The notes under the pieces: model-generated | Database searches by the model: none | Told to the model about the DNA's origin: nothing | The model's input: the letters and a program-made list of their open reading frames with translations, nothing else | Assembly (NCBI GenBank): GCA_905221615.1 | Contig: CAJNDT010003846.1 | Coordinates: 616,280 to 680,279 of the forward strand | Source of the DNA: Symbiodinium sp. CCMP2592 | Lineage: Eukaryota > Sar > Dinophyceae > Suessiales > Symbiodiniaceae | Length of the DNA stretch: 64,000 bases | Direction: 5' to 3' | In this document: piece after piece, positions 10,542 through 42,765 of the stretch | Position numbering within the stretch: position 1 is the stretch's first letter | How the letters are laid out: each line of letters starts with the position of its first letter | Translations under genes and position numbers: made by a program

Positions 10542-14632
<4,091 letters not shown>

Positions 14633-15077
14633 TGTTTGTGTTATTCTGCTGTACATGCGACAAACCTGCATTCACATGTTCACTTTTCCTCGGCATTTCT
14701 GGTTAAAATTCGTTGTTGGTTTTTGCTTTGACCCATGATTTTTCCTGTTTTCATGTTCTTTTCGCTTTTAAGTTTGCAGGGGGCTGGAGTGCATCACAGA
14801 AGTCTCCAGCCAACGAAGACGCTTCTGTGAATGCAGTGAAAACGTACCTGCAGTGGCGCACTTGGGGAGAAGCACTCCAGCTGGTGGCCACAACATGTGT
14901 TTTCAAAACATGTTGTTTTCATGCAGTTTGACTTTCGCTGAAAACTTGACCATTCCTTTATTTGCTTTGAAGCTTTGTACGGTTGCTGCAATCTGTTTGA
15001 ACATGTCCATGAAAGTATCTGCATCGGACGATCAGAACATCCAGAAGGCCGGGTCAGTAGGAGCCTTTCCAGTTGTG
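14633..15077 (+). repeat. 5' terminal direct repeat (pseudo-LTR)
   Basis: 445 bp, starting TGTTTGTGTTATTCTGC and ending CCTTTCCAGTTGTG, with no difference seen by eye from 25703-26147. It contains nested hairpin potential: GGCTGGAG/CTCCAGCC, CACAGAAG/CTTCTGTG, and ACAACATGT/ACATGTTGT around a short loop (~14890-14915). A 72-aa open frame inside it is duplicated because the DNA is, and is not considered a gene. Confidence 0.9.
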
Positions 15078-15182
15078 TTCGGCAAGAGCTCCCTCACGAG
15101 GGCCTTGTCGCTATTCGGCGAAGTTGCCGGCCCACCGGGGTTCTTGTGTTAGCAGGTCTGGAAATCAATTCCGTTTCACAAC

Positions 15183-16700
15183 ATGTTCAAGTGGAGATCA
15201 CTGAGTGGAAATCACATTTCTGGAAATCAGATCGGAGTTGCATTCTGGAGTCGCTTCTTGAGATCATTCCGGCTTGAGCTTTGCAGTCAGTTGTTGTTCT
15301 CATTTGCTGCCATGGATCGTGAACGTTCCCCCCGCCGCAACCCTTTCTGGAGCTCCTCTTTGCCAGCTTCGGTCCCACCTACCCCTGAGAGTTGGCAGCA
15401 CCCTGCTCCCCGACCCGCCCCACCAGTGAACAGACCGGCAGTGCTTCAGCCACAGAATCTTACGTGGCAACCCAATCCACGCATTGCTCAGATTATGAAC
15501 ATCTCGCCAACCCCTCGTATTCCAGGCCTCCCTTCCCCTCCTGCTGCAAACTCCCCGAGAGTCTTCGGCCCGATGATGCCAGCTGAGTTTTGCCAGAACC
15601 CAAATTATTTGGATTCCCGTTGTATTGCAGGCTTGAACTTGGCCCGTTGGGTAAAGAAGACTGATTGGACAGTTCGAAAGCAGATTGATGGATGTCCGAC
15701 CCATATGATACCGCTTCACTCGTTGCTTTATCAAGGTTGGAATTCGTATTGGGTGCGCCATATTGCCGAAGGAAAGCCGACTTTCTTTGCAGGCTTCAAA
15801 TCGATCGGTGAAGTTGTATTTTGCCATGCCTTGTTTGGAAAGTTGCGAGATGAAGACGTCGACTTGGATGAGCTTGCCTCTATTGTGCTTGGTATCAGTG
15901 ACCCTGCTTCCAAGAGCAGCGGTTCGGACTCAAAGTCGCAGGCCACACATTTGTTGGCACAGAAGGTTGTTGACTACATGCTAGGTCTGTATCCTCAGGC
16001 CTCTGTTGACACAGAGAAGGCAGCCATGGCCAATCAGATTCAGATTCTTCAACAACAACTTGCGAATTTCGAGAATGCTTCCCCCTCCCGATCTTCTAAT
16101 CCAGAGGTTGCAGGTCTGAAAACGTTGCCGATTGAAGAAAGCCCCCAAGGACGTGTGCCGGAGTCTGCGCCCTCAGCTCAGAAAGTTCCGGATGGTGCCA
16201 CTCGCCTTCTTCGTGGTCAGACGGCTGAGCCTAAAACCAGTCTCATGCAGGCATTCCAGAAAGGCAAACCATCCGGGAATCACGCTGAACCTTTGAGTGT
16301 CGAGCCCGATGAAGCTGAGACCCAGGGTCGCAACCCAGGCAATTCGAGTTCAGCTCCTCAGCCTGAGTATGGAACATCCTCGCATGTTGGACAGGTTGTG
16401 AAGATTGTTCTCACGGATCCCAGCAAACGTCACTTCTTGAGTCGCAGTTGGAAGGCTTGCAAGTCGGACAAAGAAGTATCGACGTGGATTGAAGGATTGA
16501 ACTTGAGCAAGAACAATCGACAGAAGCTCCAAACATGGACAGCTCATGTCCAACGATGGCATGCGGACCTTCCTTCCAATGAGCAGGCCGAATTGGATCA
16601 GGTTGTTGCCAATTGGGGCGTACCCATCCGTGACATTCCCAAGCTTAAGGCGAATTCTCTGCTCCGTATTCTTGCTGCCGGAACAATTCTCGTGGCTTGA
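15183..16700 (+). CDS. ORF1, gag-like protein ending in a readthrough-type UGA
   Basis: 505 residues from ATG 15183, or 462 from the in-frame ATG 15312. I favour the latter because it opens with a basic, Ser/Pro-rich region (MDRERSPRRNPF) and is preceded by a pyrimidine-rich stretch. It has a proline-rich N-terminus (~50-130 of the longer form), a globular middle with several Trp/His residues, a short helical segment with Gln-rich character (~285-300), a charged linker, and a helical C-terminal domain. I do not recognise a family. Its position 5' of the RT and its composition suggest a nucleic-acid-binding, Gag-like role. Its stop, TGA at 16698, is followed by CTA and an open frame continuing into the RT without any frame change. 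Confidence 0.65.
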   Translation: MFKWRSLSGNHISGNQIGVAFWSRFLRSFRLELCSQLLFSFAAMDRERSPRRNPFWSSSLPASVPPTPESWQHPAPRPAPPVNRPAVLQPQNLTWQPNPRIAQIMNISPTPRIPGLPSPPAANSPRVFGPMMPAEFCQNPNYLDSRCIAGLNLARWVKKTDWTVRKQIDGCPTHMIPLHSLLYQGWNSYWVRHIAEGKPTFFAGFKSIGEVVFCHALFGKLRDEDVDLDELASIVLGISDPASKSSGSDSKSQATHLLAQKVVDYMLGLYPQASVDTEKAAMANQIQILQQQLANFENASPSRSSNPEVAGLKTLPIEESPQGRVPESAPSAQKVPDGATRLLRGQTAEPKTSLMQAFQKGKPSGNHAEPLSVEPDEAETQGRNPGNSSSAPQPEYGTSSHVGQVVKIVLTDPSKRHFLSRSWKACKSDKEVSTWIEGLNLSKNNRQKLQTWTAHVQRWHADLPSNEQAELDQVVANWGVPIRDIPKLKANSLLRILAAGTILVA

Positions 16701-16703
16701 CTA
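16698..16703 (+). promoter_or_regulatory. Likely stop-codon readthrough site TGA-CTA
   Basis: ORF1 and the RT ORF share one frame and are separated only by this stop and four codons. UGA followed by CUA is the best-known leaky context in eukaryotic translation. Readthrough would yield a Gag-like/GIY-YIG/RT fusion. Confidence 0.6.
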
Positions 16704-16712
16704 CAGGCCATA

Positions 16713-19550
16713 TTGGATGCCAGGGACGTGTATCGCACTGACCATCCGCCACAAGGTTGGTGGAAACGGCACCGAAGTGAAGTGGATTTGCTTCGGAATG
16801 CTCATTTATTTTTCCAAGGTCTCTACGAGACCCCTACCATGTTCGGACGACAATGCATGGACATTGTTATTTGGATCCGTGGAAAACTCCTTTTGCTTGC
16901 TTGTGAGTTCGGGCTTGTACAGTCGCCATTGACCTCTCAGCTACGTTTAAAATGCTCCAGCTACACCTGGAAATTCTTTCAGACGCAGTCGGTGATCTAT
17001 TGTCGCATCTTTCTTCAGCCTGAGTTACAGAAATTCATGTATGTCGGATCATCATCCCAAACACTGGGCGACCGTGAGCGTACAAGATGGGGGAAATTCC
17101 AACAGATCAAGGCCGGCAAGTCAGTGTGCGGTGAACTTTCGTTGTTTTGGCATTATCGACGACAGAATTATCACATGGCCATTCCTCTGTTGATCATGCA
17201 CGTCCCACAGGCCGATTGTTTGCGCACGATTGAGCAGACATTTATCAACTTGCTACAGCCTCACCTAAATGCTCCTTGGGTTCGCTCTCTTGTCAGAGCA
17301 AAACATGCACAGCTTGCCAACTCGGATCCAGTCAGATGTGTTCGGCGATTTGTGACCTCGTGGAGAACCTTCCGACGCTTTCGACGTCGGAATTTCCAGC
17401 TCACTGGAATGACTCCTTCGGTCTTCCGGTCGACACACATTGTTCAGAACATTGTATACAGTTATCAGATTCTGTTTGACTTAGCTTCTGACGGGCTGAA
17501 GTCCTTTCTTGCCCAAAAATATCTGCGCAGCAATCGAGTTGACTCGGATTTTCTCTATAGATTATTCAGGATGGCCACTCATCTGGGTGACCCGTTCTAT
17601 GAGACGATCTGCAGGTCCAGATTGAACACTGTTCTGCAATTTCGACAGTTGAGGTGCCCGACTACATGCCGCCCCCTTTCCACTCCGTTCTTGCTACCTG
17701 AAGTAGGCTTTAAACGCTTGGTTCGCGGCATGTTGAGAGATATTCTGGATGTATCGACGGATCGACTACTGCCGTACCACATTCCAGCGACATCGCTTGT
17801 TGCCAAAAGTCACCCTAAAATCAAGGATGTGTTGTTTTCGCATAAACCCATCCTGCAGTCGTGGGACCCGCACGAGGAGCCGCAACACGCTGGTGTCACA
17901 TGTTGCTGCCATGAACTTCTTCGACGTCATCCACACCTGACTGTTGTCCAGGGTCACATTGCTTCTTCTGCCACGTTGTTGACCCTGCCACCTGATTTGA
18001 CTCAGTTGGCCCAGTCCAGTTGCTCCAATCCGGTATTCATGAACGCCACGGATCATTGGACGATGTTTCTTGAAGACGTGAGGCATTGGATTGATCACCA
18101 TGGCTTGATGCATTACCCGACTGTTGATATTCGAAGTGTGTGGCAGAAGGCTTGGAAGCTGCACTCACAACACGTTGGAACACATTGGTCAGTGGATCAG
18201 GTTCGTGAGTTGCGAAGAAGGACCAACGGCTTGGTGTGGCATGTCCGTGACCATGAAGGCTCGCATGCGCATGTTTTCTGTCCTGTGAAGTATTGGATGA
18301 TGCTCCAGAACACTTTTACTGCTGAATCGGTCTTCAAGCCATTGTCGTTAAATCCCTCGACAATTATGGTCCAGATGGAACATGCAGTGCCACCTCGCAT
18401 TCTTGAATCCTTTCCCTTCCGTTTTGGATCTCGTGCTGCCCGTGTGTCATGGGCTTACATTCTCCCCAAGTTCAAGAAAGAATGGAAAGGAGGCAGGCCA
18501 ATCGTTAGTTTTGCCTCTCACCCGGCTCGCCAGTTCTTGGTTGTGATGGCGCGAGTCACAGAGATGCTTGTCGCTGAAGTGTGTCCTCACACTCGATCTT
18601 ACAACGATGCAATCTTGCTTTGGCAGAACATACATGCTTTCTTTGAGAAGCGATGTCACAGCTCGGATCAAGACAGACAAAAGCTTGCCATGCATAATCA
18701 AGACTTGTCAGGTTTTTTCGTGAGCATTCCACGGGAACGGTTCATGATTACCTTTCGCATATTGCTTTGTCGTTTTTACGACGTCTCGGATGCGGATCTT
18801 GATCATGCCTTAAAAGGCGTTGTGGTGACTGTGGACTTGGAAAACAACATGTCAGTTATGAAAACTATCCGTGGTCGGCATTGCCTGTTGAATGACAAAC
18901 GAGTGGCTGTCCCAATGGACCTATTTCTGGAGGCTGTACAGGTGTCCTTCAAGTTCAATCTATTCATGGTGGGTCAGCAGGCCATTCAACAAATCCGAGG
19001 TGCACCGATGGGAAGCCACTTTTCCCCGGCAGCTTGCCATGCTGTGGTAAGCCTATACGAGCACATGTACTTTGGCAAATGTCTGTTAGAGTCTTCTCGC
19101 TTGCCAACCTTCGGCCTTGTGGTTCGATATGTCGACAACCGGATGAGTTTGATTCTTGATCGCCATGCCAACTATGCTGCCGTGCAAGCTTTTCTGCACC
19201 AGGATGTATACATACCGCCCATCGTTCTTGAGTATGAGGATGGAGACCTTTTCCTGGGTTTTCATGTGGATGTACAGGAACTACGAGTACAGTATGTCCA
19301 GCCTGTTGAGACCTGGAAGTTCTTGCACCCCAACTCTGCCGCAAACACACGGACACTGTTAAGCAGCTTTCGATCCAGAGCTCACCTGATTGCACGTGCT
19401 TCTTGGCCGTTGGAACAGCGGGAGGCCGATCTCGAACAGCTACTGCAGTCCTATGTACGACAGGGATTCGATCCGCTGCTGATGCACCCCATTCTGAAAC
19501 GTGTTAGGCTACAGTTTAACAATCTTCGCGCTCGCCCGACTGCAGTGTAA
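16713..19550 (+). CDS. GIY-YIG nuclease / reverse transcriptase (permuted Penelope-like)
   Basis: 945 residues; no ATG at the start, which fits readthrough from ORF1. Residues ~92-190 form a GIY-YIG nuclease: VIYCRIF (94-100) and MYVGSSS (109-115) as the two signature strands, basic RERTRWGKF (121-129), and catalytic-type Glu174 in RTIEQTFINLLQPHLN. Reverse-transcriptase motifs follow: KEWKGGRPIVSF (~590), motif A with D664 in QDLSGFFVSI, motif B' GAPMGSHFSP (~763), motif C YVDN (806-809), then FLGFHVDV and a thumb region. The GIY-YIG domain is N-terminal, as in Naiad/Chlamys elements and unlike classical Penelope. The second Asp of motif C is Asn. A long insertion lies between motifs A and B'. 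Expected role: nicking of target DNA and reverse transcription. Confidence 0.8.
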   Translation: MDARDVYRTDHPPQGWWKRHRSEVDLLRNAHLFFQGLYETPTMFGRQCMDIVIWIRGKLLLLACEFGLVQSPLTSQLRLKCSSYTWKFFQTQSVIYCRIFLQPELQKFMYVGSSSQTLGDRERTRWGKFQQIKAGKSVCGELSLFWHYRRQNYHMAIPLLIMHVPQADCLRTIEQTFINLLQPHLNAPWVRSLVRAKHAQLANSDPVRCVRRFVTSWRTFRRFRRRNFQLTGMTPSVFRSTHIVQNIVYSYQILFDLASDGLKSFLAQKYLRSNRVDSDFLYRLFRMATHLGDPFYETICRSRLNTVLQFRQLRCPTTCRPLSTPFLLPEVGFKRLVRGMLRDILDVSTDRLLPYHIPATSLVAKSHPKIKDVLFSHKPILQSWDPHEEPQHAGVTCCCHELLRRHPHLTVVQGHIASSATLLTLPPDLTQLAQSSCSNPVFMNATDHWTMFLEDVRHWIDHHGLMHYPTVDIRSVWQKAWKLHSQHVGTHWSVDQVRELRRRTNGLVWHVRDHEGSHAHVFCPVKYWMMLQNTFTAESVFKPLSLNPSTIMVQMEHAVPPRILESFPFRFGSRAARVSWAYILPKFKKEWKGGRPIVSFASHPARQFLVVMARVTEMLVAEVCPHTRSYNDAILLWQNIHAFFEKRCHSSDQDRQKLAMHNQDLSGFFVSIPRERFMITFRILLCRFYDVSDADLDHALKGVVVTVDLENNMSVMKTIRGRHCLLNDKRVAVPMDLFLEAVQVSFKFNLFMVGQQAIQQIRGAPMGSHFSPAACHAVVSLYEHMYFGKCLLESSRLPTFGLVVRYVDNRMSLILDRHANYAAVQAFLHQDVYIPPIVLEYEDGDLFLGFHVDVQELRVQYVQPVETWKFLHPNSAANTRTLLSSFRSRAHLIARASWPLEQREADLEQLLQSYVRQGFDPLLMHPILKRVRLQFNNLRARPTAV

Positions 19551-19687
19551 ACAGACTTTGCTTTCGTTGATGCCCGCGTTTGCACAGTGCTTCAGCCCAT
19601 GTACCATTGAGCTGGTTGCTTGCCATGTATCCTTTGCTCGAGAGCTTTTGTGCCTTGTATTTTCTGTAGCTTCCTGCAAACTCGACC

Positions 19688-21352
19688 ATGTCCGCGGAAG
19701 ACAGTCTTAATCTGTTCCCGAAGTCCTCGGGCCCTCCTGGCCCTGTAAGTGGCTCCGTGGAAATGTATATTCGAAAGAGGGTTGCACAAGAGGTGAACCG
19801 AGCCCTTGCACCGCCAGACACACTTCCAGCATGGGCACAGCCGACCGGAAGCGCTTCCGGAGGCCGCCGCGCTCTCCCTCCACCACCTGCCCCTCCTTCT
19901 TCTTCTTCGACTCCTTCGCTCCCTCAAGTTCATGTGGATGCTGCACTTCCCCGAGCTCCTCCCCCTTCGCCTTTCTTGACTCTCACTGAAGGAAGTGGAT
20001 CTTCGGCCCAGTCTATTCAGATTCATGACGAAGGTATGGCAAATCGGGTTATTGAAAGCCTGACCTCTGTTCGGTTGTTTGGCACTAATCGGGACGATCG
20101 GTCAAGGAGCCCGGTTTTGAAGCCGTGCCCGCCTCTCCCACGAAAGCGTCGTCAGCTCGCCGATGAGGAACGTCTACCTATTGAAGACAAGCCGTCATCC
20201 TCCGCCCAGCTTGCTATTGTTGACGCCAGCCTCGACAAGTATGCAGTTCCGGATGGACCGGAGCTTCCAGCTCCCTCGACCGAATGGGTTTGTGTTCAGC
20301 CCTCCTCCGGACCACCGATTTGGGTCCAATTTCTGGAACCTACAAAGTTGGACAGGCCTGATGTTCAACATTCGATGTGGCCCCAATTCTATACCATTCG
20401 GGCTGTTGCAGGAATGAATGTGTGGAATTTCGATCCCACCGCCTCCGAAAAAGAAAAGAAGAAGTATTGGTCTGAGATTGAACGGGTGTTGTTACATTAC
20501 CGGACTGCGATCATGAAGGACGTCAATCGTATCAAAAGTGCGGCCGAAATTATTGTTCCAGTCTTGCCGACTGGACCCTTTGATCTCCAGGAGAGATGGA
20601 TAGCTACCATTTTGGCAGGTGCCGACCATCATGCCAACTACTCATGGTCGGATGCTCAAGGTTACTTTGCTATGGGCCCGGATGCCAAAAAGCAAATTCA
20701 GAGCCTTGCCCGTATTCTATCCTCCGTGTCTCGCCTTCGCCCTTTTGTTCGAGATGATCTCCAGGCCGGCCGTGGATCTTATTGGTTGTTCCCGGGGAAC
20801 TCGGACCCGGACACTGGCCTTGTGGATGATGGTTCACATGAAGCTCCCCTAGGAGTTTTCCTTATTTCAACAACGAGGCTTCCGGATGACCCTGCCACCT
20901 GTTTCGCTGTGCCCTTTGTTCACAATACAGTCCCTCAGGACTTGGCTTCGATCATCAATCAGGAAGTTGTCAGACCATCATACTTCGACCGGGCGGACCG
21001 CACATGGGTTCCATCCACCGGCTTTTACGGCCGCATGACTTGGCCGAAACCTGCTATTCGGCTTCCAAAGCTTGACGGATCTCAGCCGGAGCATTTGATC
21101 GCTATGAGAAATTCGATGTTGGGGGCCCGCCGCTTCGGAGGAAAGCAAGTTGATTCTCGTACGTGTGCGGCGCTAGGCTGGACCTTTGTGAGGCAACACA
21201 CTCATTTTAAGGCTGTCAACGCCTCCGATCAAACATTCGGACATTTCGGCGATTTGATTCACGGCCAGGACGGCCGTTGGATGTTTCGTTCCAGTCGGAG
21301 TGTCTTAGTCGGCACCGCTGTCTTTTGGACATCGTGGGCACGTGATGCATAA
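19688..21352 (+). CDS. Accessory ORF with H-x-T (Tpt1/ART-like) motif
   Basis: 554 residues from ATG 19688, 137 nt after the RT stop. The N-terminal third is Pro/Ser-rich with a basic PRKRRQL patch (possible nuclear signal). The middle is a globular region with FDPTASEKEKKKYW. The C-terminal part contains CFAVPFVHNTVPQDLASII followed by VRPSYF. H-x-T followed by a helix ending in x-x-P is the entry signature of Tpt1/KptA-type RNA 2'-phosphotransferases and some ADP-ribosyltransferase folds. The copia-type element in this window has a similar segment (HATDLQALSSILRHGLVPS). The remaining catalytic residues cannot be confirmed by eye, so the family is a hypothesis. Confidence 0.45.
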   Translation: MSAEDSLNLFPKSSGPPGPVSGSVEMYIRKRVAQEVNRALAPPDTLPAWAQPTGSASGGRRALPPPPAPPSSSSTPSLPQVHVDAALPRAPPPSPFLTLTEGSGSSAQSIQIHDEGMANRVIESLTSVRLFGTNRDDRSRSPVLKPCPPLPRKRRQLADEERLPIEDKPSSSAQLAIVDASLDKYAVPDGPELPAPSTEWVCVQPSSGPPIWVQFLEPTKLDRPDVQHSMWPQFYTIRAVAGMNVWNFDPTASEKEKKKYWSEIERVLLHYRTAIMKDVNRIKSAAEIIVPVLPTGPFDLQERWIATILAGADHHANYSWSDAQGYFAMGPDAKKQIQSLARILSSVSRLRPFVRDDLQAGRGSYWLFPGNSDPDTGLVDDGSHEAPLGVFLISTTRLPDDPATCFAVPFVHNTVPQDLASIINQEVVRPSYFDRADRTWVPSTGFYGRMTWPKPAIRLPKLDGSQPEHLIAMRNSMLGARRFGGKQVDSRTCAALGWTFVRQHTHFKAVNASDQTFGHFGDLIHGQDGRWMFRSSRSVLVGTAVFWTSWARDA

Positions 21353-21588
21353 GTGATTGTTGATGCCTCCTTACCCCCGGTTGTCTTCGCTTGTTTTCTT
21401 CCGGCTTCAGAGTGAATAAGACCAATCGCTTGCCCACATTCTGAGTGTTGCACTCCGCCGTGGACCGTACGCCTGAAAACTTAACTGACCGGATGCTAGG
21501 GTTTGCAGTCTCAAGTGGCTAATGCATTGCAGCGCTTTGTGCATCATTTCGTCTTGTGTGCTGAACTTTTGCTCAGTCCCATGTCAAC

Positions 21589-22689
21589 ATGTCCACCATA
21601 GAGCGTAGCCCTTTTGATGTAGATGCCGATGGTTTCAATTTTCAGTCACTGGACGAGTTGGCTTCATTTCTATTCCGTATTCTTGATGGTATTCCTCCAC
21701 GGATGTGGTTGAGTTACAGTCGAAAGAAGGTGCGATCTACAGACCAAGCTCATGCAGATCAGATATTGCTTGGCTTGTATTCTGGCGTGCAGTCTCGAGG
21801 AAGATTGCAGTTTACAAAGAACACATTCCGGTTCCCTGGCCTTACCAAGTTGATTGTCCGAATGCTACATTATTCTCCCCAATTCTCGGATCTTGCAGTT
21901 ACCAGTATACAGATCAATCGCAATGTCCGGACTATTCCGCACAGAGATTCAAACAATCACGGCCCAAGCATTGGCTGGGCCATTGGAGATTGGACAGGTG
22001 GAGAATTATTTGTTGTGGAAGACCGAGGTCGCTTTACATATACAGTTGATGATTTCAATTGCAATGTTGCATCGCATGGTGCTCACTTGACAGGCAGACT
22101 CTTGGATGTCAGACAACCTTGCTGCTTTGACGGAAATGTGATTCATGCTACCATGCCGTTCACTGGAACTCGAATCATGATGGTTCTTTTCTGTGTCAAG
22201 CAACATGTTCCCGTTTCACCCCATGCCTCTTGTCTCTCTTTTGCTCGTTTTCTCGGTCTTCGTGTTCCTGTCCGTTCCTCTCTTTCCTCGTCTGTTCCCT
22301 CTGGCCCTCTCTTCTCTTCTCCTCCGTTGTCTTTGTCTGCCTTTCCTTTCTCCTCGTCTGGTCGGTCCTTGTCCTCGTCGGTTCTGTCTCCTCCTTCTTC
22401 TCCCTCTCTTCCTCCTCTTCCTCTTCCGTCTGGTCCTCCCCGTCCGTCTGCCCGTCCTCCGTTGTCGTCTCTTTCTCCTGCTTCCTCGGTTGCCTCCCTC
22501 GCGTCTTCGTCGGTTTCCTTTGGCCCTCTCCGTGTTTCCTCTGTTCCCTCTTGCTCCTCCTCTCTGCGGTCTTGGTCCTGCTCCTCCTTTCCTGGGTCTT
22601 CTTGCTCTTCTTTTGTTGTTTCTTTCTCTGACTGTAATGCTGACGATTCCGACGAACCATGTCAGAGTGACATGTCACTTGACGCATAA
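21589..22689 (+). CDS. 2-oxoglutarate/Fe(II) dioxygenase with Pro/Ser-rich tail
   Basis: 366 residues from ATG 21589. The iron-site triad is visible: H118 and D120 (IPHRDSNNHG) and H186 (NVIHATMPF), with R195 (TGTRIMM) in the place of the 2-oxoglutarate-binding Arg. GGELFVVED and RLLDVRQPCCFDG supply the usual strands. From about residue 220 the protein is a Ser/Pro/Leu-rich, low-complexity tail produced by TCC/TCT-rich DNA. The core resembles the free-standing ORF at 7090-7707. A role in modifying nucleic acid or protein is possible (AlkB/P4H-like fold), but the substrate is unknown. Confidence 0.7.
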   Translation: MSTIERSPFDVDADGFNFQSLDELASFLFRILDGIPPRMWLSYSRKKVRSTDQAHADQILLGLYSGVQSRGRLQFTKNTFRFPGLTKLIVRMLHYSPQFSDLAVTSIQINRNVRTIPHRDSNNHGPSIGWAIGDWTGGELFVVEDRGRFTYTVDDFNCNVASHGAHLTGRLLDVRQPCCFDGNVIHATMPFTGTRIMMVLFCVKQHVPVSPHASCLSFARFLGLRVPVRSSLSSSVPSGPLFSSPPLSLSAFPFSSSGRSLSSSVLSPPSSPSLPPLPLPSGPPRPSARPPLSSLSPASSVASLASSSVSFGPLRVSSVPSCSSSLRSWSCSSFPGSSCSSFVVSFSDCNADDSDEPCQSDMSLDA

Positions 22690-23411
22690 AAGATTGCTTC
22701 AGGTGCGCTGCGTGCATTCGCATCGTATGCCTCTCACTCTCTTTGCATTGGTCGGCATGCATGTCTTCAGGCAAGTTTGTTGCATGTGCTCAAGAAGTAT
22801 GCTCCTCCAATCGATAGACCATGACCCGTTGCCAGTTTCGTGATGTTTGGATGGAAGATGCGCCTCGATTCTGCATATTCTCCTTTCTTATGGTACGCAG
22901 CAGTGTGCATGTCAGCACACAGAGATGTGACAATCCTGATTCTTGCCGAAACCTGCAGCACGTCCAGTGGCAGCGATGGTTGATACATGGGTTGGGACGT
23001 TGTTTTCAAGCACACAATTACCATGGACTGTCCAATGACTCTGCTACTTTCAACTTTACACATCTTCTTCCACGATACAGTAAGTCCTTCCTGTGCCTGT
23101 CAGTGCAGTGTCGCGCTGTGACATTGCGACATATCAAGTTTCTGATGCGATTACGAGTTTGCCATGGTTCTCGATTGAAGCCCTCTTGTACATACCAGCT
23201 TATGTGTATCGAGACATGTTGGTGCCAACTTCACCAAGTTACGTTTTCGGCATGCGAATTTCCTGCTGCACATGTTCGAGTTATCTAGGCGGCTTTGAGG
23301 TCAAAAAAGTGTCCGCCACTGTTCTGTCCATTTGTGTGCCTCAGTTTGCCAAAAAACGTGAGTCTTGGCAGACGTTGGTTCAAGTATTTATGCACCAATG
23401 TTCACGTATCA
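22690..23411 (+). other. Interval within the element; possible small ORF at 23093-23440
   Basis: The sense-strand frame 23093-23440 (115 residues, GTG or an upstream start) has ordinary composition, with FSIEALLYIPAYVYRDMLVP and a CCTCSS cluster, but no recognisable family. It overlaps the next ORF's ATG by 29 nt. The rest, including 22821-23288, shows no convincing coding signal. It may be untranslated leader or a decayed ORF. Confidence 0.3.
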
Positions 23412-23999
23412 ATGTCTGGCTCTTTGCTGAGCTGCAATGACATAATCAGCAGTCTGGATGGAGATCAAGTCACGGCTCTTTTTCAGATCTTGGGAGATCG
23501 CCGGCAGAGGGCAGTCTTTCTTTCTCATCTTCGACGTCGGATTCAGAACGATGCGGATGCCCTTGTTGCACAACATCTTGGTGCTCCCTCCCACTCTGTC
23601 TCTGTGCCCTCTGTCCCTTCGTTGTCTTCTTTTCTTGCTCCCTCTCCTTCTCCCTCTCCCCTTCCTCCTCCTCCTCCTCCTCCCCCTCCTGCTTTTCCTC
23701 CTCCTCTCCCTGTTTCCTTCTCTGCTTCTGGCCGTTTTCCTTTTTCTCCCTCTCCCTCTCTTCTAGATGCCTCTCTTGGCGCTGTTTCGAGTGACGCTGC
23801 ACCGATAGTCATGGATGGACCGACTCTTTCGGACCCTCAACAGCGTGGCGCATTGCCCCGTCGACGGCAACAGACTGCTCCTGCTGCTCGGAGAAGCAGA
23901 TCTATGAGTGAATCGGAGGTTCGCGAGAGATCCCGTTCGAGATCTAGGTCAAGATCAAGCACCACTGTTTCACCCGGAGGTTCTCGTCATATCAGGTAA
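23412..23999 (+). CDS. Pro-rich protein with RS-repeat tail
   Basis: 195 residues from the in-frame ATG 23412 (the frame is open from 23295). An N-terminal helical domain (~10-60) contains DGDQVTALFQILGDRRQRAVFLSHLRRRI; then comes a poly-Pro stretch, a Ser-rich linker and a C-terminal RS domain (RERSRSRSRSRSS). RS tails are typical of nuclear RNA-processing factors, so an RNA-binding or packaging role is plausible. The poly-Pro segment is encoded by a CCT-rich tract and could be simple-sequence expansion. Confidence 0.5.
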   Translation: MSGSLLSCNDIISSLDGDQVTALFQILGDRRQRAVFLSHLRRRIQNDADALVAQHLGAPSHSVSVPSVPSLSSFLAPSPSPSPLPPPPPPPPPAFPPPLPVSFSASGRFPFSPSPSLLDASLGAVSSDAAPIVMDGPTLSDPQQRGALPRRRQQTAPAARRSRSMSESEVRERSRSRSRSRSSTTVSPGGSRHIR

Positions 24000-24130
24000 G
24001 CCAGACGTACGATGAAGACAAAACTGTTGTCCCGAACTTGCTTTCAACTTCTGAGGCGCAGACATGTGTTGTGCTTTCTTGCTTTCTTGCAGCATCATAC
24101 TTTGAAGTTGCTTACGGCTCAATTTGTAAG

Positions 24131-24463
24131 ATGAAGCGAACAGCAAGTATGGCGGCCCTTCCGGCCCCAGCTCCGATGGTCAGGATTCCAGTTGTTATTC
24201 CTCCGGATATATGCTCTGGCGGACGTGAGATGGGTTTCTGGCTTTCTTTGCCTACAGATTCTACGATCGATGACTTGAAGAGGAAGGTGTGCGATGAGCT
24301 TGCGAACCGCACGGGGATTCCACCCCGTTTGAACGCCTTCCAATTACGGCAATTTGGTCAACATTTACCATTCACATCTTCGATTTCTCGAGTTGCTGCC
24401 TTTCCGCATACTACGCAGTCAGTTCACTTTGTGAGAACCTGGCCACACGAATCATCGTGGTGA
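24131..24463 (+). CDS. Ubiquitin-like domain protein
   Basis: 110 residues from ATG 24131, which follows a polypyrimidine-CAG sequence (~24070-24093) that looks like a splice acceptor; the frame is open from 24038. After a short basic/Pro leader, residues ~33-105 follow the ubiquitin beta-grasp pattern: STIDDLKRKVCDELANRTGI (helix), then IPPRLNAFQLRQFGQHLPF, then a final strand SVHFVRTW. There is no C-terminal Gly-Gly, so conjugation is unlikely unless processed. It could act as a fold module for interaction with host ubiquitin machinery. Homology is inferred from pattern only. Confidence 0.45.
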   Translation: MKRTASMAALPAPAPMVRIPVVIPPDICSGGREMGFWLSLPTDSTIDDLKRKVCDELANRTGIPPRLNAFQLRQFGQHLPFTSSISRVAAFPHTTQSVHFVRTWPHESSW

Positions 24464-24513
24464 ACTTGTACAGTGTGCTGATCATAAAAATAAATGCTGT
24501 ATTGCGGTCCGTT

Positions 24514-25125
24514 ATGCGAGCTCATGAGTTTTTGTTGCTTTTGCAATCTACCAGTTGTCCTTCTTTCACTGCAGGATGTGAGCCCGAATGTTTCGTAGTG
24601 CCTTCTGAAGGGTGTAGACTTTTCCTCGACGCCATGTGGGAACTTACTGTTCTGACTGAGAAAGTGCTGACTTTTATCAGCACCCGACGCCATATAATTT
24701 TCTTCTTCACCTTCCCTGCATTAGATCCACTTGAGACTCTGGATGTTACTCTTCGCAGACATGGATTTCATACGATGTATGATCTTGAACAGTTCGTCAC
24801 ACAATGCAGAACAGAAGGGATGGATCTTCGTGCTGAAGTATGGGAGTTCTTTATGCAAGGACCCAGTGTGTATACGCCGATTACGTGTGAAGCTCCCGCC
24901 TTACCTCATATTGTGGTGTATGCGTCCGTATGCAAAGAATGGTATTACACTATTATCCGATTGGTTGGCGATCGCACATTCTTCAATATTCAGCAGCTTT
25001 GGCGTCTTGCCCAAGTGCGCCATGCCAATGTGGAATGGATTCATCACTCCAATGAAGACCGAGTGCGTATTGGGTCGGCTTTCATCGATGATCTTACTGT
25101 GCGCCGCATTGTTCACCCACTGTAA
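24514..25125 (+). CDS. Hypothetical accessory ORF
   Basis: 203 residues from the in-frame ATG 24514 (open frame from 24457, overlapping the end of the ubiquitin-like ORF). Sequence is balanced and globular: a hydrophobic stretch HIIFFFTFPALDPLETLDVTL, a helix with LEQFVTQCRTEGM, then VVYASVCKEWYYTIIRLVGD and a C-terminal FIDDLTVRRIV. No family recognised. The hydrophobic segment is short and could be a buried strand rather than a membrane helix. Confidence 0.4.
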   Translation: MRAHEFLLLLQSTSCPSFTAGCEPECFVVPSEGCRLFLDAMWELTVLTEKVLTFISTRRHIIFFFTFPALDPLETLDVTLRRHGFHTMYDLEQFVTQCRTEGMDLRAEVWEFFMQGPSVYTPITCEAPALPHIVVYASVCKEWYYTIIRLVGDRTFFNIQQLWRLAQVRHANVEWIHHSNEDRVRIGSAFIDDLTVRRIVHPL

Positions 25126-25277
25126 AGTGTAGAATCGACCTGGACTTGAGCGGATCACGCCACATGAGTATAAATGGTGTCCTTGGTCATGCGAGTCTTG
25201 ACATGTGGCCCTAGGATTGCCTTCTTTCGTGCTGATATGTAGTGCTCAAGCTTTTTTGAAGTCTCAGTGCGTAATCA

Positions 25278-25627
25278 TGTCGTCCAGTGGTCGTCGTACT
25301 CTTCGTTATGAACCAGGGTCGAGGCGAGCCAGCGATGACAATTTGGAGGATATTGTGCAAACATCAGCTGCCGATGCCCTCGATGCTCTTCGCTCTAACG
25401 ACATTCACCCACAAGACCTTATTCGGTTGATGCTTCGAGTTGTCGAAATCCTACGTGATTCTTCGGACTTTCAACAAAGGATGTCACGATGCTCCGGATT
25501 ATGCTCTCATCCGAACTGTGGTCGTGTATGTGCTCGTGCAGACGAAGGTCACAATCATTGCCGATGCTATTACCACCAGGTTATTGACCGCAGTGAGAGA
25601 GCCATCAAGAAGCGTAGACATCAATAG
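25278..25627 (+). CDS. Small basic Cys/His-rich protein
   Basis: 116 residues from ATG 25278 (open frame from 25205). An Arg/Ser-rich start (MSSSGRRTLRYEPGSRR), a helical middle (DALRSNDIHPQDLIRLMLRVVEIL), then a Cys/His cluster (CSGLCSHPNCGRVC...HNHCRCYYH) that could bind one or two zinc ions, and a basic end (KKRRHQ). This resembles a nucleocapsid-like nucleic-acid binder. It ends 75 bp before the 3' terminal repeat. Confidence 0.5.
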
Positions 25628-25702
25628 GCTTGCTGCTCACACGATGATTGGGAACAGTCGCAAAAGACCTGCACCTTGATGCTTCTTGCCCCTCCGGGGG
25701 CC

Positions 25703-26147
25703 TGTTTGTGTTATTCTGCTGTACATGCGACAAACCTGCATTCACATGTTCACTTTTCCTCGGCATTTCTGGTTAAAATTCGTTGTTGGTTTTTGCTTTG
25801 ACCCATGATTTTTCCTGTTTTCATGTTCTTTTCGCTTTTAAGTTTGCAGGGGGCTGGAGTGCATCACAGAAGTCTCCAGCCAACGAAGACGCTTCTGTGA
25901 ATGCAGTGAAAACGTACCTGCAGTGGCGCACTTGGGGAGAAGCACTCCAGCTGGTGGCCACAACATGTGTTTTCAAAACATGTTGTTTTCATGCAGTTTG
26001 ACTTTCGCTGAAAACTTGACCATTCCTTTATTTGCTTTGAAGCTTTGTACGGTTGCTGCAATCTGTTTGAACATGTCCATGAAAGTATCTGCATCGGACG
26101 ATCAGAACATCCAGAAGGCCGGGTCAGTAGGAGCCTTTCCAGTTGTG
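25703..26147 (+). repeat. 3' terminal direct repeat (pseudo-LTR)
   Basis: The same 445 bp as 14633-15077, offset 11,070, with no difference seen by eye. The flanks on both outer sides (CGCTCGTTT and CTACATTGC) do not match, so no simple target duplication is visible. Confidence 0.9.
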
Positions 26148-26789
26148 CTACATTGCATGCCTCAAGGAAAGAAGCCAGAGGAAAGGCCACGGGCTATGGA
26201 AGCGCTGCAACATAAATGGCCGTCGTCTCAGAAACGGGCCGTTGGAGCCATCTCGCAATCATCACCTTGCCAAATTGTGTCAGGTCCTTTTCCTCTTCCG
26301 ACGACGAGATTCCGAAGGCCAGGTATGCATCTCTGAGGTTGCAACTCCCAAATGTGGGTATGCAAAATTTTATTCGGAAGACTTCTGCCACTCCGATCTC
26401 TGATGCACATGAGACAGGACGTGCCGGGTGCGCTGATCAGCTCCATGGTTTCATTAGACCTGCTTCCTGCGCGTTTACACTAGGCCTTCATGCAAAGGCT
26501 AGTGCAAGCAGGATTTCCTGGGACGGCACTTTCGTTTCCAGATGGTACTCGCTCCGTTAGCCTCGGCAATATCTGATTTTTTTCGTGGTCTGACATGACA
26601 GCCTGCCATAGCCTACCGACGTACTGTAACGTGGAGCCAAAGGTTCAGATTAATTTTAACGCTACGCCGCCCGCCTCGGCTGTGTAGCGGCAGGGCGAGG
26701 GGGCAGTCGATGCTTTTTTATGCTAGGGCGGCCTGTCAAACCCCAACCTTTACACGGTTGTTGATACGAAGTGCGAGGAGAACGGGTAC
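26148..26789. other. Spacer without recognised gene
   Basis: About 640 bp of mixed sequence; short open frames (e.g. 26216-26560) have no recognisable features. Confidence 0.5.
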
Positions 26790-26858
26790 AAGGGGGGTGG
26801 AGGGTGGGGGGAGGGAGGGGGGGAGGGGGGGGAGGAAGAGGGGGGGGAGGGGGGGGGG
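26790..26858. repeat. G/A-rich tract, left target flank of the copia-type element
   Basis: Almost pure G with scattered A/T, ending in eight G just before the TG that opens the 5' LTR. The same kind of tract resumes immediately after the 3' LTR at 42766. Confidence 0.9.
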
Positions 26859-27106
26859 TGAAACCATAAACCTCTAAAGGGGTAGCTCTAACAGGTACCT
26901 ACAGCAATGGCTGCATGCTCATACATATACATTCCGCTGCCCATTGGCTCACAGTGGTTTTACCATATTGAGACAAGACAAGCTCTCCTTGCGTAGCAAG
27001 ACAAAACAACTACTGTCCGTGTGCAGGGCGCTGCCCTTTGATCCTTAGGGAATAAACTGGTCATACACCTCCTAACAGAGCATTTCCTTGTGGGTGTATC
27101 GGCACA
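26859..27106 (+). repeat. 5' LTR
   Basis: 248 bp from TGAAACCATAAACC to TGTATCGGCACA. It matches 42518-42765 apart from a single-base indel (ATAAACTGG/ATAACTGG) and a cluster of changes near 27074-27086 (AACAGAGCATTT versus AACAAGGAGTATT). It includes a short inverted pair TTGCGTAGCAA. Confidence 0.95.
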
Positions 27107-27112
27107 GTTTTC

Positions 27113-27128
27113 TGGTAGCGGAGCCCGG
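27113..27128 (+). other. Primer binding site, initiator tRNA-Met type
   Basis: TGGTAGCGGAGCCCGG starts 6 nt after the LTR end. TGGTA plus GAG matches the complement of the 3' end of eukaryotic initiator tRNA-Met (TGGTAGCAGAG or TGGTATCAGAGC), the usual primer of copia elements. The host tRNA sequence would be needed to confirm it. Confidence 0.7.
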
Positions 27129-27208
27129 AAAGGGCCGCCCGCCTCACAAAGTCCGCTACAGCGGTCGGCCTCGCCGAACGCTTAACCAAGCGGATAAGAG
27201 GCAGCACA

Positions 27209-30200
27209 ATGTCGAGCTCGCATAGCGAAGCCGACGGCAGTTCCCAATCCTCCGGGGGATATGAGAACGAAGAGACCTCCCAAGGTCCAGCCACTTATGT
27301 CGCACAGTCATATGCAACATCTGACCGCATGCTTGCATCATTAGGCATAACGCCCAAGATCGCGCCTGCCTATGATGGCACCACCTCGTGGTTTGAGTAT
27401 GAACAGTTGATTGACGACTGGTGCGACATAACAACGCTGGATGACACCAAAAGAGGTCCGTCTCTCAAGACGAGGCTCTCCGGATTGGCCGCAGTACAAA
27501 AAGAATCACTTAACCGAGAAAGGCTTGCAGCCCCAGATGGAGTAGATTACTTCAAGAAGAAGATGCGTCCATTTTTCGTGAAAGGAGAACAGTACGTTTT
27601 CCTGTGGCGTTTCCTCGGCCTATTCAAGGCATGGAAGGGCAACCAAGACTTTGTGACTTGGATTGCTAAGTTTGAGATCGTGCTACAGCGCGTGAAAAAC
27701 TCATGGATGGATCTCTTACCAGAGATAGCTCTGGAAGATGCCCATCCAGATTTCATGCAGGCTGTGCAGGCAGATCAAACCTTCTTGCGCCTACAGGATG
27801 CAACCGAGAGAGACACATACGCCGCACGTTTCTTCGAAACATGGAACAAGGAACGCCTTGATAATCATCGAAGAGCGTTTCCTCTAAATGATAATCTCCT
27901 AGCTCTCCTCTTCCTAGTGCAGTCCGACCTAAATGAGATGCAACGTGAGAGGTTGGTAACAGCATTGACCAACCAAGGTCACCGAATTGAGACCTATACG
28001 TACCCTGTGGTACGGCAGACCATGTTCGATCAGTTCTCAACGACCAGAACTGGTCTGCAGGATCCCAACATTCGGCACTCTTCTCACAAGAAGGACCGCC
28101 ATGGAAGGAGAGATCAACGCCGCAAACGCGGAGGTCGAAACTTCCTCATCCTCGATCAGGGTGAATACGACGGAGTCGATGGATTCTGGCTCCAAGACGA
28201 AGACACCCTTGAGGAAGGCTTTCTTGCCGCCGAGGATGAAGAAGCTGTCTTCTGGACAGTTGACGACCATGAAGCCTTCGTTGCAAGGAGATTCAAAAAG
28301 GGAAGAAGACCAAGAATGCGTCCCGGATCACCGGGAAGAGCAAAGGGTGGCAAGCGAAAAGGACGTGGCCGTTTTAGGTCATACCGCGGAAAAGGGAGAG
28401 CCAACCAGGCAGAACATGATCCAACTGATTCCAGCTATTTCGGTAAAGGTAAAGGAAAGGAAAAAGGAAAAGGTGGAAAAGGCAAAGGAAAAGGAAAGGA
28501 CAAAGGAGACAAAGGAAGCTCCTTCAAGGGTACAAAAGCAAAAGGCAAAGGTAAGGATACAGCTAAGTCTGCCTCCTTACAAGGAGACCAAACTGGATCT
28601 CCACAGGCCTATGAAAGTTCCACCGCACCGAGCTGGGATTCATGGTATGAGGACAGTTATTATACTGACTCCAGTTGGAATTATGCCGCTTATGACGATC
28701 AAACGTCTTATACATACTATGCATCACAAGCCTCACGAAGAAAGACACGGAGAAAGAAGAGAAGAAATCAAGCAGGATCATCAGGTAGAGGCACAGATCC
28801 GAGCGCGCACCAAGAACCCGTGTACAACTCATCAGTGAGTTACGTGCCCCAGGTCTCTGAACCATCCGAGGGGCAAGGTGTGGAGACTGCAACAGCAGTG
28901 TTTCCGTTGCAGCACACCGTCCTATCTGCTCTCACAGAGCGGATCAATCTTGATAAGAGCCCTACCTTTGTCATACTTGACTCAGGTTGTACTAGGGCTA
29001 TGGGTTCCCGCTATGCGGTGAACAGGCTTATCAAGGCCGTGAAGCAACATGCCCCAGGCATGATTGATTTCACTTTTTCACCTTCGAACACGAAGTTCTC
29101 TTTCGCAGATAGTGAAACAGCTCTTATCAAGGAGCGTGTAACTCTATGGTTCAACACAACTCCAAGAAGAGATACAACCATAGAAGTTTTGGATCAGGGG
29201 AGAGTCCCCATTTTGTTTTCCATCGAACAGATGAGGAATTTAAGAATGACCCTCGAGTGTAGTCCCACAGCTGACCTAGCAACGTGTGAAGCTTTCGGTT
29301 TGTATAAAACCCCTCTTCCGATTAGTACCAATAACCATTTGGTATTGGACCTTCTAGGCTTCACTTCCACCAGGAAGTATCTCCCTAAGTCAGGTACGTC
29401 GTTCAGTGCGACGGAGACTGCTCTAGGAGCCAACAAGCCTTATACTAGGATACCGGAAGGTCGCTGTCCAGCCTGTGCCGGACAGAAAAGGGCTCACACG
29501 TACCTCAAGGGTTGCGACAAAGCACCTGAGGGAGCAGCTGATCCACCACCGAAGAGGATTTCAGGTAAAAAGAAGCCTCTTCCATCTGATCCGGCAGAAT
29601 CATCTGCCAAGAAACTTGATCCACCAGAACCATCTGGTGATGCTCCTGAGCCTTCCGGACCATCGGAACCATCATCAGGCTCTAGGGACAAACCTGCAGA
29701 ATCCTCTGCACCACATGAACCTCCAGAAGAAGAAAGACTTGAGGTCCCACCTGCGAAGATAAAGACTCCAAAGGGTCTTAAAAACCTTCTGAAGAAATCC
29801 CGCAAATATGCGGTTAAACCTCCTGTTGAAGAGAAGTCTAAGGTCCCAGGAGCTGATGACGGGACGGAGGTAAGACCACTTGAGTCAAGAGAATACCCGG
29901 CTCCTGGTACAGACTCACCTACAGGTGAAGAGATTGTCGCGGAACCATCGCCATCTCTTCCCATTGCTCTTCGCAGGATTCACGAGAAGCTTAAGGACCC
30001 TGTAGAACTCTATAAGCTTCACCGTAAGCACCGTCATATGAGTACGGATCAGTTCAAGCGACGCACAAAAGCCTTACAGATCCCAAAGGAGATATACGAG
30101 CTATATGACCAACTGGTCAAAAAGTGTTCAGCCTGCCAGGAACATGTGAGAGCTCCTTCAAGAGCGAAGATTTCTGGTTTAAGATCAGAGACTTTCGGTG

Positions 30201-42517: not shown

Positions 42518-42765
42518 TGAAACCATAAACCTCTAAAGGGGTAGCTCTAACAGGTACCTACAGCAATGGCTGCATGCTCATACATATACATTCCGCTGCC
42601 CATTGGCTCACAGTGGTTTTACCATATTGAGACAAGACAAGCTCTCCTTGCGTAGCAAGACAAAACAACTACTGTCCGTGTGCAGGGCGCTGCCCTTTGA
42701 TCCTTAGGGAATAACTGGTCATACACCTCCTAACAAGGAGTATTCCTTGTGGGTGTATCGGCACA
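42518..42765 (+). repeat. 3' LTR
   Basis: 248 bp, TG...CA; nearly identical to 26859-27106. Followed directly by the G-rich tract. Confidence 0.95.

Follow-up and report, generated by a model that had tools for sequence, protein, structure and literature searches.

The Chlamys and Naiad groups of Penelope-like elements (PLEs), reportedly described by Craig et al. 2021, carry their GIY-YIG nuclease domain at the N-terminus. A CxC motif lies between nuclease and reverse transcriptase (RT), one or two genes are the norm, and selenocysteine (Sec)-containing Naiad elements exist. Penelope-type elements share common ancestry with telomerase and are counted among the least understood retroelements (PMC6431247); tandem arrangements with pseudo-long terminal repeats (pseudo-LTRs) are described for PLEs (PMC11167929), and a Chlamys element in the brown alga Ectocarpus is presented as the first PLE reported in the TSAR supergroup (PMC12477816). 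No report of a Penelope-like element with a GIY-YIG nuclease in dinoflagellates or Symbiodini was found in the open-licence literature, as represented by titles and the opening parts of abstracts. Here, we analyse a stretch of 64,000 nucleotides (the window; contig C3846:616280-680279) from the 1.098-Gb assembly of the dinoflagellate Symbiodinium sp. CCMP2592, in which positions 14633-26147 are one mobile element bounded by identical 445-bp repeats.

We interpret this unit as a recently active, nine-gene nuclear retroelement, probably a deep relative of PLEs of the Chlamys/Naiad type with an N-terminal GIY-YIG domain, which inserts by the mechanism outlined below; we give this reading a probability of roughly two in three. 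As in Chlamys and Naiad, the nuclease precedes the RT and a C-x-C lies between them; the terminal repeats and a tandem may correspond to the pseudo-LTRs and tandems of those groups. The element differs from them in having nine selected genes rather than one or two, an in-frame TGA CTA ahead of the RT, and octamer-specific insertion with fixed ends. An earlier note on this DNA, which regarded PLE relatives as usually restricted to one or two open reading frames (ORFs), put the matter too strongly, given the Terminons of bdelloid rotifers, giant multi-ORF PLE relatives (PMC6431247). Like these, the present element is large, of PLE type and rich in accessory genes; Terminons have an RT without an endonuclease domain, are telomeric, and carry hammerhead ribozymes and other accessory genes. 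The Symbiodinium element, in contrast, has a GIY-YIG motif, lies in dispersed or tandem host repeats at the insertions with empty sites, and gave no Rfam match and no ribozyme at 13600-27200.

The nuclease-RT protein and the terminal repeats

All features described below lie on the + strand. Self-comparison of the window confirmed the direct terminal repeats of the earlier note exactly (445/445 identical positions), the 5' long terminal repeat (LTR) at 14633-15077 and its 3' counterpart at 25703-26147. Its same-strand ORF set is likewise present, with nine ORFs instead of eight. ORF2 (16839-19550; 903 aa; frame open from 16701) encodes the nuclease-RT protein, for which six database relatives (P0001-P0006) were 48-80% identical. 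A GIY-YIG-like domain can be read at motif level at 16971-17288 (VIY 52-54, YVG 68-70, R79/R83, E132, N144); the pattern V-I/V-Y, 13-14 residues, Y-V-G, together with E132 and N144, is shared by the window protein and the four homologues whose alignment covers this region, so that the nuclease N-terminal to the RT proposed earlier is present at that level. The C-x-C (C355, C357; 17901-17909) between nuclease and RT is invariant in the homologue alignment. The RT palm and fingers (18414-19271) contain LPKFKK..GRPIV, QDLSGFFVSIP (D622), RGAPMGSHFSP, YVDN (764-767) and FLGF, and the motifs LPK..K...GRPIV, DLSGFFVSIP, RGAPMGSHFSP and YVDN read as Penelope/telomerase-like. It is plausible that the element is a permuted-domain Penelope relative.

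The ends of the element were compared in 11 copies, namely the window copy and ten others chosen with both repeats located. Repeat pairs within a copy were identical in 8 of the 11, the others differing at 2/492, 2/494 and 3/482 positions. The repeat begins with the octamer TGTTTGTG (14633-14640 in the window), which is also the insertion target sequence, and ends with CAGTTGTG. Among the copies read, 15 of 16 shared this left end (C4135 has CGTTTGTG), the 15 including five more diverged copies. The right end was CA(G/A)TTGT in 17/17 ends read, with a final G in 15/17, and CA(G/A)TTGT(G) has TTGT(G) in common with the octamer. In C4135 and C3724 the base after the right-end TTGT is A, yet the left octamer ends in G, a pattern that places the junctions inside the shared TTGT.

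No target-site duplication was seen beside the repeats in the 11 copies. When the left and right flanks of one copy were compared, the longest common word averaged 2.55, 5.27 and 7.91 within 15, 40 and 150 bases; flanks taken from different copies gave 2.86, 4.76 and 6.90. The own-flank matches did not abut the element on both sides. To search for empty sites, we fused the host flanks of every one of the 11 insertions (90 + 90 bases) into a single query, scoring 40 of 837 candidates. Among the matches listed, all 40 places spanned the junction and exceeded the fused flanks in length by 8 bases; they derived from three insertions (C5284, C1169 and C1913), and the six loci read, two per insertion, all had TGTTTGTG at the junction. 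A second search covered six other insertions, leaving out C1580 and C1924, and found one full-length place, a 90% identical paralogue of the window's own site, again 8 bases longer and holding TGTCTGTG. The insertions with empty sites reside in dispersed or tandem host repeats. The octamer in the empty sites of the three insertions equals the repeat's own first 8 bp, and insertion is site-specific for a short word carried at the element's own left end. By chance, an octamer would occur about 33,500 times in the genome; within the window TGTTTGTG occurs four times, two of which are the repeats.

A 26-mer from the left end of the repeat occurred 147 times in the genome, and its reversed control not at all. 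In the first 100 of these 147 repeat starts, 24 of 39 spacings equalled one 9-12 kb unit. Two of the 24 came from C686, where repeat, element, repeat, element and repeat follow one another and the three repeats stand 11133 and 11058 bases apart. Some starts followed one another at a distance of only 1-3 kb (C532:123076, C306:237546, C1580:742637 and C3680:414493) and probably mark short non-autonomous derivatives. At C1247:194-12251, two 5'-truncated copies lie head to head with a common truncation point, either a natural inverted insertion or an assembly artefact.

Integration and competing explanations

As the simplest model, we propose that the GIY-YIG nuclease would nick the target inside the octamer, whereupon the freed 3' end in CACAA would anneal to the 3'-terminal UUGU(G) of an element RNA that spans both repeats. 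The RT would then copy the whole RNA by target-primed reverse transcription, and the 8-bp match at the left end would close the other junction. Such nicking and priming would account for why the ends are fixed, why no additional duplication is seen, how the A/G pattern in C4135 and C3724 arose, and how copies come to lie head to tail; joining of the last kind, as in C686, is possible because each repeat starts with the target octamer. As in site-specific non-LTR elements of the R2 type, insertion is target-specific and reverse transcription probably target-primed; the differences from R2 are another nuclease, the terminal repeats, and a short dispersed octamer rather than one gene as target. 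Integration of Penelope-type elements becomes directly testable in a family whose ends are fixed, whose empty sites can be read and whose target word is known.

Several observations weigh against this interpretation. The earlier identification as Penelope-like is upheld by motif and domain order and lacks profile support: Pfam gave no match for the window nuclease-RT protein, searches of the PDB with it came back empty, and the best RVT_1 score (E = 0.0034, RT part of relative P0005) fell below the curated cut-off, so that kinship with Penelope would be by motif only. Structure prediction of the RT from seven sequences was unusable (predicted local distance difference test, pLDDT, 35). YVDD is the usual RT motif and YVDN is unusual; YVDN replaces it here and in the four homologues that reach the motif. 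Empty sites were recovered for only 4 of the 11 insertions; C4936, C151, C1282 and C4135 (four of the six re-asked) gave only themselves in the second search. The C947 site has only diverged relatives, not all with the octamer: in a set of five, C34 and C811 carry TGTTTGTG at a roughly homologous place, C4933 has TGTTCGTG, C579 is without the octamer, and in C2369 another element copy ends there. When the first 100 repeat starts were grouped by contig and strand, 28 of the 61 groups had a single start, which may be a solo, truncated, diverged or contig-end repeat. Moreover, the proposed mechanism would require an RNA spanning both repeats, and the fixed ends with near-identical repeat pairs resemble LTR elements more than 5'-truncated Penelope copies.

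One doubtful alternative is that the repeats are Penelope-type pseudo-LTRs and that the two-repeat unit is a slice of tandem copies or of a tandem transcript. The C686 tandem with its two regular spacings fits this explanation, as do the inverted pair at C1247, unless that is an assembly artefact, and the published PLE tandems with pseudo-LTRs (PMC11167929). Against it stand the single 9-12 kb units that make up most of the spacings examined, even with the two from C686 among them, and the uniformity of the ends read, which is contrary to variable 5' truncation.

Unlikely, in our judgement, is an LTR-type cycle in which cDNA is made in particles with strand transfers and the DNA is joined at a short shared core, GIY-YIG replacing integrase. 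The identical repeat pairs in 8 of 11 copies, the fixed ends, a junction within the short common core TTGT, and a gag-stop-pol layout as in some retroviruses all agree with such a cycle. However, the sites at which LTR elements prime synthesis are absent at their expected places: there is no TGG in the 30 nt after the 5' repeat that would mark a tRNA primer-binding site, and in the 60 nt preceding the 3' repeat, where a polypurine tract would lie, no run of purines exceeds 6. Crude patterns for zinc knuckles, integrase and tyrosine recombinase found nothing in the element, and the only protease-like word was one D-T-G-L, in ORF3. RNase H, protease, integrase and tyrosine recombinase had no Pfam match in the element ORFs, an argument that is weak because Pfam misses even this RT. 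The RT motifs read as Penelope/telomerase-like, whereas a neighbouring copia ORF was caught by RVT_2 at 7.4e-17. Taken as a comparison, LTR retrotransposons and retroviruses resemble the element in that their two terminal repeats are identical and one in-frame stop separates the first gene from the second. In contrast to them, the element has no recognised primer-binding site, polypurine tract, RNase H or integrase, carries a GIY-YIG-like domain, targets an octamer without target-site duplication in the 11 copies, and has empty sites that hold only the octamer between the flanks.

Probable readthrough between ORF1 and the RT gene

ORF1 (15183-16700; 505 aa, its N-terminal part proline-rich) and the GIY-YIG/RT gene share one frame, interrupted by a single TGA, and the RT frame measured from 16701 has 949 codons. 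The sequence TGA CTA at 16698-16703 is a probable readthrough stop leading from ORF1 into the RT frame through an open, in-frame linker of 46 codons (16701-16838) that ends at the RT ATG. The ORF1 stop was TGA in 30/30 loci; the next codon was CTA in 29 of them and CTC in the other. The RT start lay 138 nt downstream of the stop, in frame, in all 29 measurable loci (L021 has a deletion). Pooled over 10 diverged copies, partly interrelated, the linker showed synonymous (pS) and nonsynonymous (pN) differences of 0.25 and 0.07 in frame against the window, the other two frames having no such excess. The RT ATG was kept in 27 of the 29 copies with a locatable start, L023 having GTG and L030 ATA; L017 carries a stop inside the linker. 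None of the element's other eight stops has the TGA CTA context, and UGA CUA is described as a high-readthrough consensus in human cells (PMC4359377).

An ORF1-nuclease-RT fusion of 505 + 1 + 949 codons is thus probably made by gag-pol-like readthrough, because TGA CTA is conserved, the linker is under coding constraint and some copies have no RT ATG. At sequence level the junction has the properties of a readthrough cassette, namely a single conserved in-frame stop of the leaky type and coding constraint downstream of it. ORF1 would mostly be translated alone, occasional readthrough of TGA CTA fusing it to the nuclease-RT. A stem-loop at the ORF1 stop was considered and is not claimed (fold z = -1.86, 8/200 shuffles as good). 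The readthrough junction and the octamer target matching the element's own end are new facts, absent from the earlier note.

We regard it as improbable that the TGA is instead a Sec codon, or that the RT is translated by re-initiation at its own ATG. The Sec option draws on the Sec-containing Naiad elements and re-initiation on the retention of the ATG at 16839 in nearly all copies with a locatable start; both sit poorly with the coding constraint on the linker upstream of that ATG, with L023 and L030, which have no RT ATG, and with the near-invariant CTA after the stop.

Gene linkage, selection and accessory genes

The unit is repeated with its genes. The RT protein search, a lower bound in which 50 of 1164 first-look candidates were scored, listed 52 matches, of which 25 extended from residue 1 as far as 902 or 903 (an internal stop being present in one); once two second pieces of already counted places were dropped, 50 RT places were tabulated. 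ORF3, ORF4, ORF7 and ORF9 followed on the same strand, in the same order and within 16 kb in 36 of these 50, mostly at the spacing of the window. Seven further places lacked ORF9 only, four had ORF3 and ORF4 only, one had ORF3 only and two had none. Some of the incomplete places are interrupted, among them C1913, with ORF7, ORF9 and the second repeat more than 30 kb away. The check for further copies suggested in the earlier note, made here from coordinates, speaks against a chance assembly, and the set travels with the RT.

Few of these genes occur apart from the element: no other element gene lay within 20 kb at 1/74 ORF3, 0/67 ORF4, 2/63 ORF7 and 24/67 ORF9 places, counts from which we excluded second pieces, remote relatives with less than about 57% identity, and ten apparent ORF4 fragments (34-74 residues, 62-85% identity, e.g. 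C5274:35899). The isolated ORF3 and ORF7 places (C349, C1335 and C5127) all had a repeat end nearby, and the three isolated ORF9 places read, out of 24, all lay inside a >5-kb repeat carrying an element fragment; C718 is a piece at a contig end that has the repeat and right flank of the window copy. For these three, the idea that ORF9-only places are small element derivatives was rejected, as they lie inside another large repeat. That repeat (L068-L070; C369:365325, C5022:174222 and C4113:142109) is 99.84-99.98% identical among its three copies, and its element fragment contains part of the terminal repeat as well as an ORF9-like frame that is intact and 80% identical.

The gene arrangement is probably shared beyond this genome, because a Symbiodinium natans database protein (P0011) joins the RT C-terminus to ORF3 and because the source contigs of relatives of ORF3 (P0009) and ORF4 (P0029) are both 201432 long. 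Homologues of ORF3 comprised P0007-P0012, the named relative being S. natans. Scans of IMG/VR with the RT, ORF4 and ORF3 alignments returned no relatives.

Selection was assessed from ratios of nonsynonymous to synonymous divergence (dN/dS), comparing the window with 29 other RT loci (best 30 of 52 matches) for the RT, ORF1 and ORF3, and with five other copies picked to span divergence for ORF4-ORF9. The RT gave 0.02-0.14 in 29 copies, ORF1 (from codon 53) 0.03-0.25 in 28 of 29 copies, the value of 0.76 in L016 coinciding with a broken alignment, and ORF3 0.00-0.18 over its first ~453 codons in 29 copies. For ORF4, the domain gave 0.15-0.16 in four copies, the nearest copy having zero synonymous changes there, and the tail 0.14-0.43 in five. 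Values were 0.13-0.20 for ORF5, 0.05-0.38 for ORF6, 0.08-0.19 for ORF8 and 0.11-0.34 for ORF9 (5/5 copies each), and 0.09-0.19 in four copies for ORF7, which is unchanged in the fifth and nearest. ORF8 had in-frame stops in C1002 (three) and C2735 (one). Alternative frames of ORF4-ORF9 gave about 0.6-3.7, nearly all with stops, although 3/5 copies had an open +1 frame in the ORF4 tail. In the two most diverged copies, spacers were 50-77% identical versus 70-89% for genes. All nine ORFs behave as genes, each showing purifying selection in the other copies. The explanation that host genes came to lie between two repeats by chance, with which the want of any recognised mobile-element domain in Pfam would agree, is refuted and its probability negligible, because the ORF set recurs with the RT and all nine ORFs are under purifying selection.

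Two stretches of the RT gene (16839-17093 and 18459-18653) showed synonymous divergence of mostly 0.07-0.20 (one overlapping window 0.31), versus mostly 0.3-0.65 elsewhere; this could reflect an RNA element acting in cis, some other signal that overlaps the gene, or gene conversion.

ORF1, called gag-like in the earlier note, is so by position only. ORF3 (19688-21352; 554 aa) has a proline-rich N-terminus and a conserved C-terminal half; an ADP-ribosyltransferase fold was considered and dropped, Pfam having given only SSFA2_C (E 0.13, 3/7 members), and its structure prediction was unusable (pLDDT 33). ORF6 (23412-23999; 195 aa) is Pro-rich with arginine/serine (RS) repeats at its C-terminal end, and ORF9 (25277-25627; 116 aa) has a C-terminal Cys/His cluster with probable zinc binding; these correspond to the RS-rich and Cys/His ORFs named before. 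The ubiquitin-like ORF can be recognised by eye in ORF7 (24131-24463; 110 aa), which had no Pfam match. The virus-like complexity that the earlier note saw is not among the supported points. ORF5 (22821-23288; 155 aa) is rich in Cys, His and Arg, and ORF8 occupies 24514-25125 (203 aa). Distant ORF7 relatives (34% identity) occur as pairs ~14-15 kb apart on one strand (C4844:285677/300463 and C4035:610844/624967), perhaps belonging to another large tandem element. Between the ORFs and the repeats lie a 5' leader (15078-15182), which opens with TTCGGCAAGAGCTCCCTCACGAGGGCC and contains, by eye, a hairpin CCCTC-AC-GAGGG, and a G+C hairpin (25688-25702; GCCCC-TCC-GGGGGCC, by eye) that abuts the 3' repeat.

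ORF4 (21589-22689; 366 aa) consists of a 2-oxoglutarate/Fe(II) oxygenase-like domain and a Ser/Pro/Leu-rich tail. The homologue alignment shows the oxygenase motif HRDSNN ... H-A-T-x-P-F-x-G-x-R, and two of the 19 family members matched Tet_JBP, at E = 0.0056 and 0.032, the 34.9-bit cut-off remaining unreached. Tet_JBP had no match in the window's own ORF4. The dioxygenase suggested previously is retained at motif level and a TET/JBP-like identity is proposed with low confidence. Distant ORF4 relatives (24-41% identity) sit in very long open frames of the same genome, including domains ~31% identical to ORF4 at C68:284899, C1171:58479 and elsewhere (at least 11 rows with a 3166-codon frame). 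Because of these, it is possible that more than one type of element has acquired an oxygenase of this kind; cytosine methyltransferases are described as having entered dinoflagellate retrotransposons (PMC5890265). Multimapping reads from Breviolum, taken by the authors as repeats, show enrichment of hydroxymethyluracil, and ORF4 may act against host DNA modification in dinoflagellates, where this base seems repeat-associated (PMC11071213). More broadly, ORF3-ORF9 may serve packaging, RNA handling and, through the ORF4 oxygenase, escape from host DNA modification.

Spliced-leader trans-splicing would probably divide a single long transcript into separate mRNAs for ORF3-ORF9. The dinoflagellate spliced-leader 21-mer had 429 exact matches in the assembly and its reversed control 0, which identifies the host as a dinoflagellate. 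Most spacers hold a short conserved block ahead of the next ATG, several of them GCTCAAG-like, and the scores of this word over seven spacers summed to 42, above all 500 shuffles (mean 35.1, maximum 41); a 9-base leader end gave P = 0.004. It is possible that these blocks are splice-acceptor signals. Speaking against the proposal, the word length was selected after inspection of the spacers, and a 12-base leader end (relics of the dinoflagellate spliced-leader 12-mer) was not significant in them (P = 0.13). The element suggests a way for a retroelement to run a nine-gene programme in a trans-splicing host.

On a tentative view, which we put forward as a possibility, the element represents a new retroelement class that combines a permuted GIY-YIG RT from the Penelope/telomerase side, a retrovirus-like organisation with identical terminal repeats and gag-UGA-pol readthrough, seven further selected genes (among them a possible DNA-modifying oxygenase) and homing to the 8-bp word of its own end. 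It may form particles and would then mark a separate origin of a retrovirus-like life cycle outside the LTR lineage. We know of no other system in which those four features occur together.

Immediately downstream of the element, the window encodes a 2622-aa copia-type polyprotein (27209-35077; RVT_2 E = 7.4e-17), in which a DNA-methyltransferase-like stretch can be seen by eye, with no Pfam match at E 0.01. A 142-bp segment at 26859-27000 is repeated identically at 42518-42659, the query having ended at 27000. Further along, positions 42900-63700 contain numerous interstitial TTTAGGG/AACCCTA-like tandem arrays.

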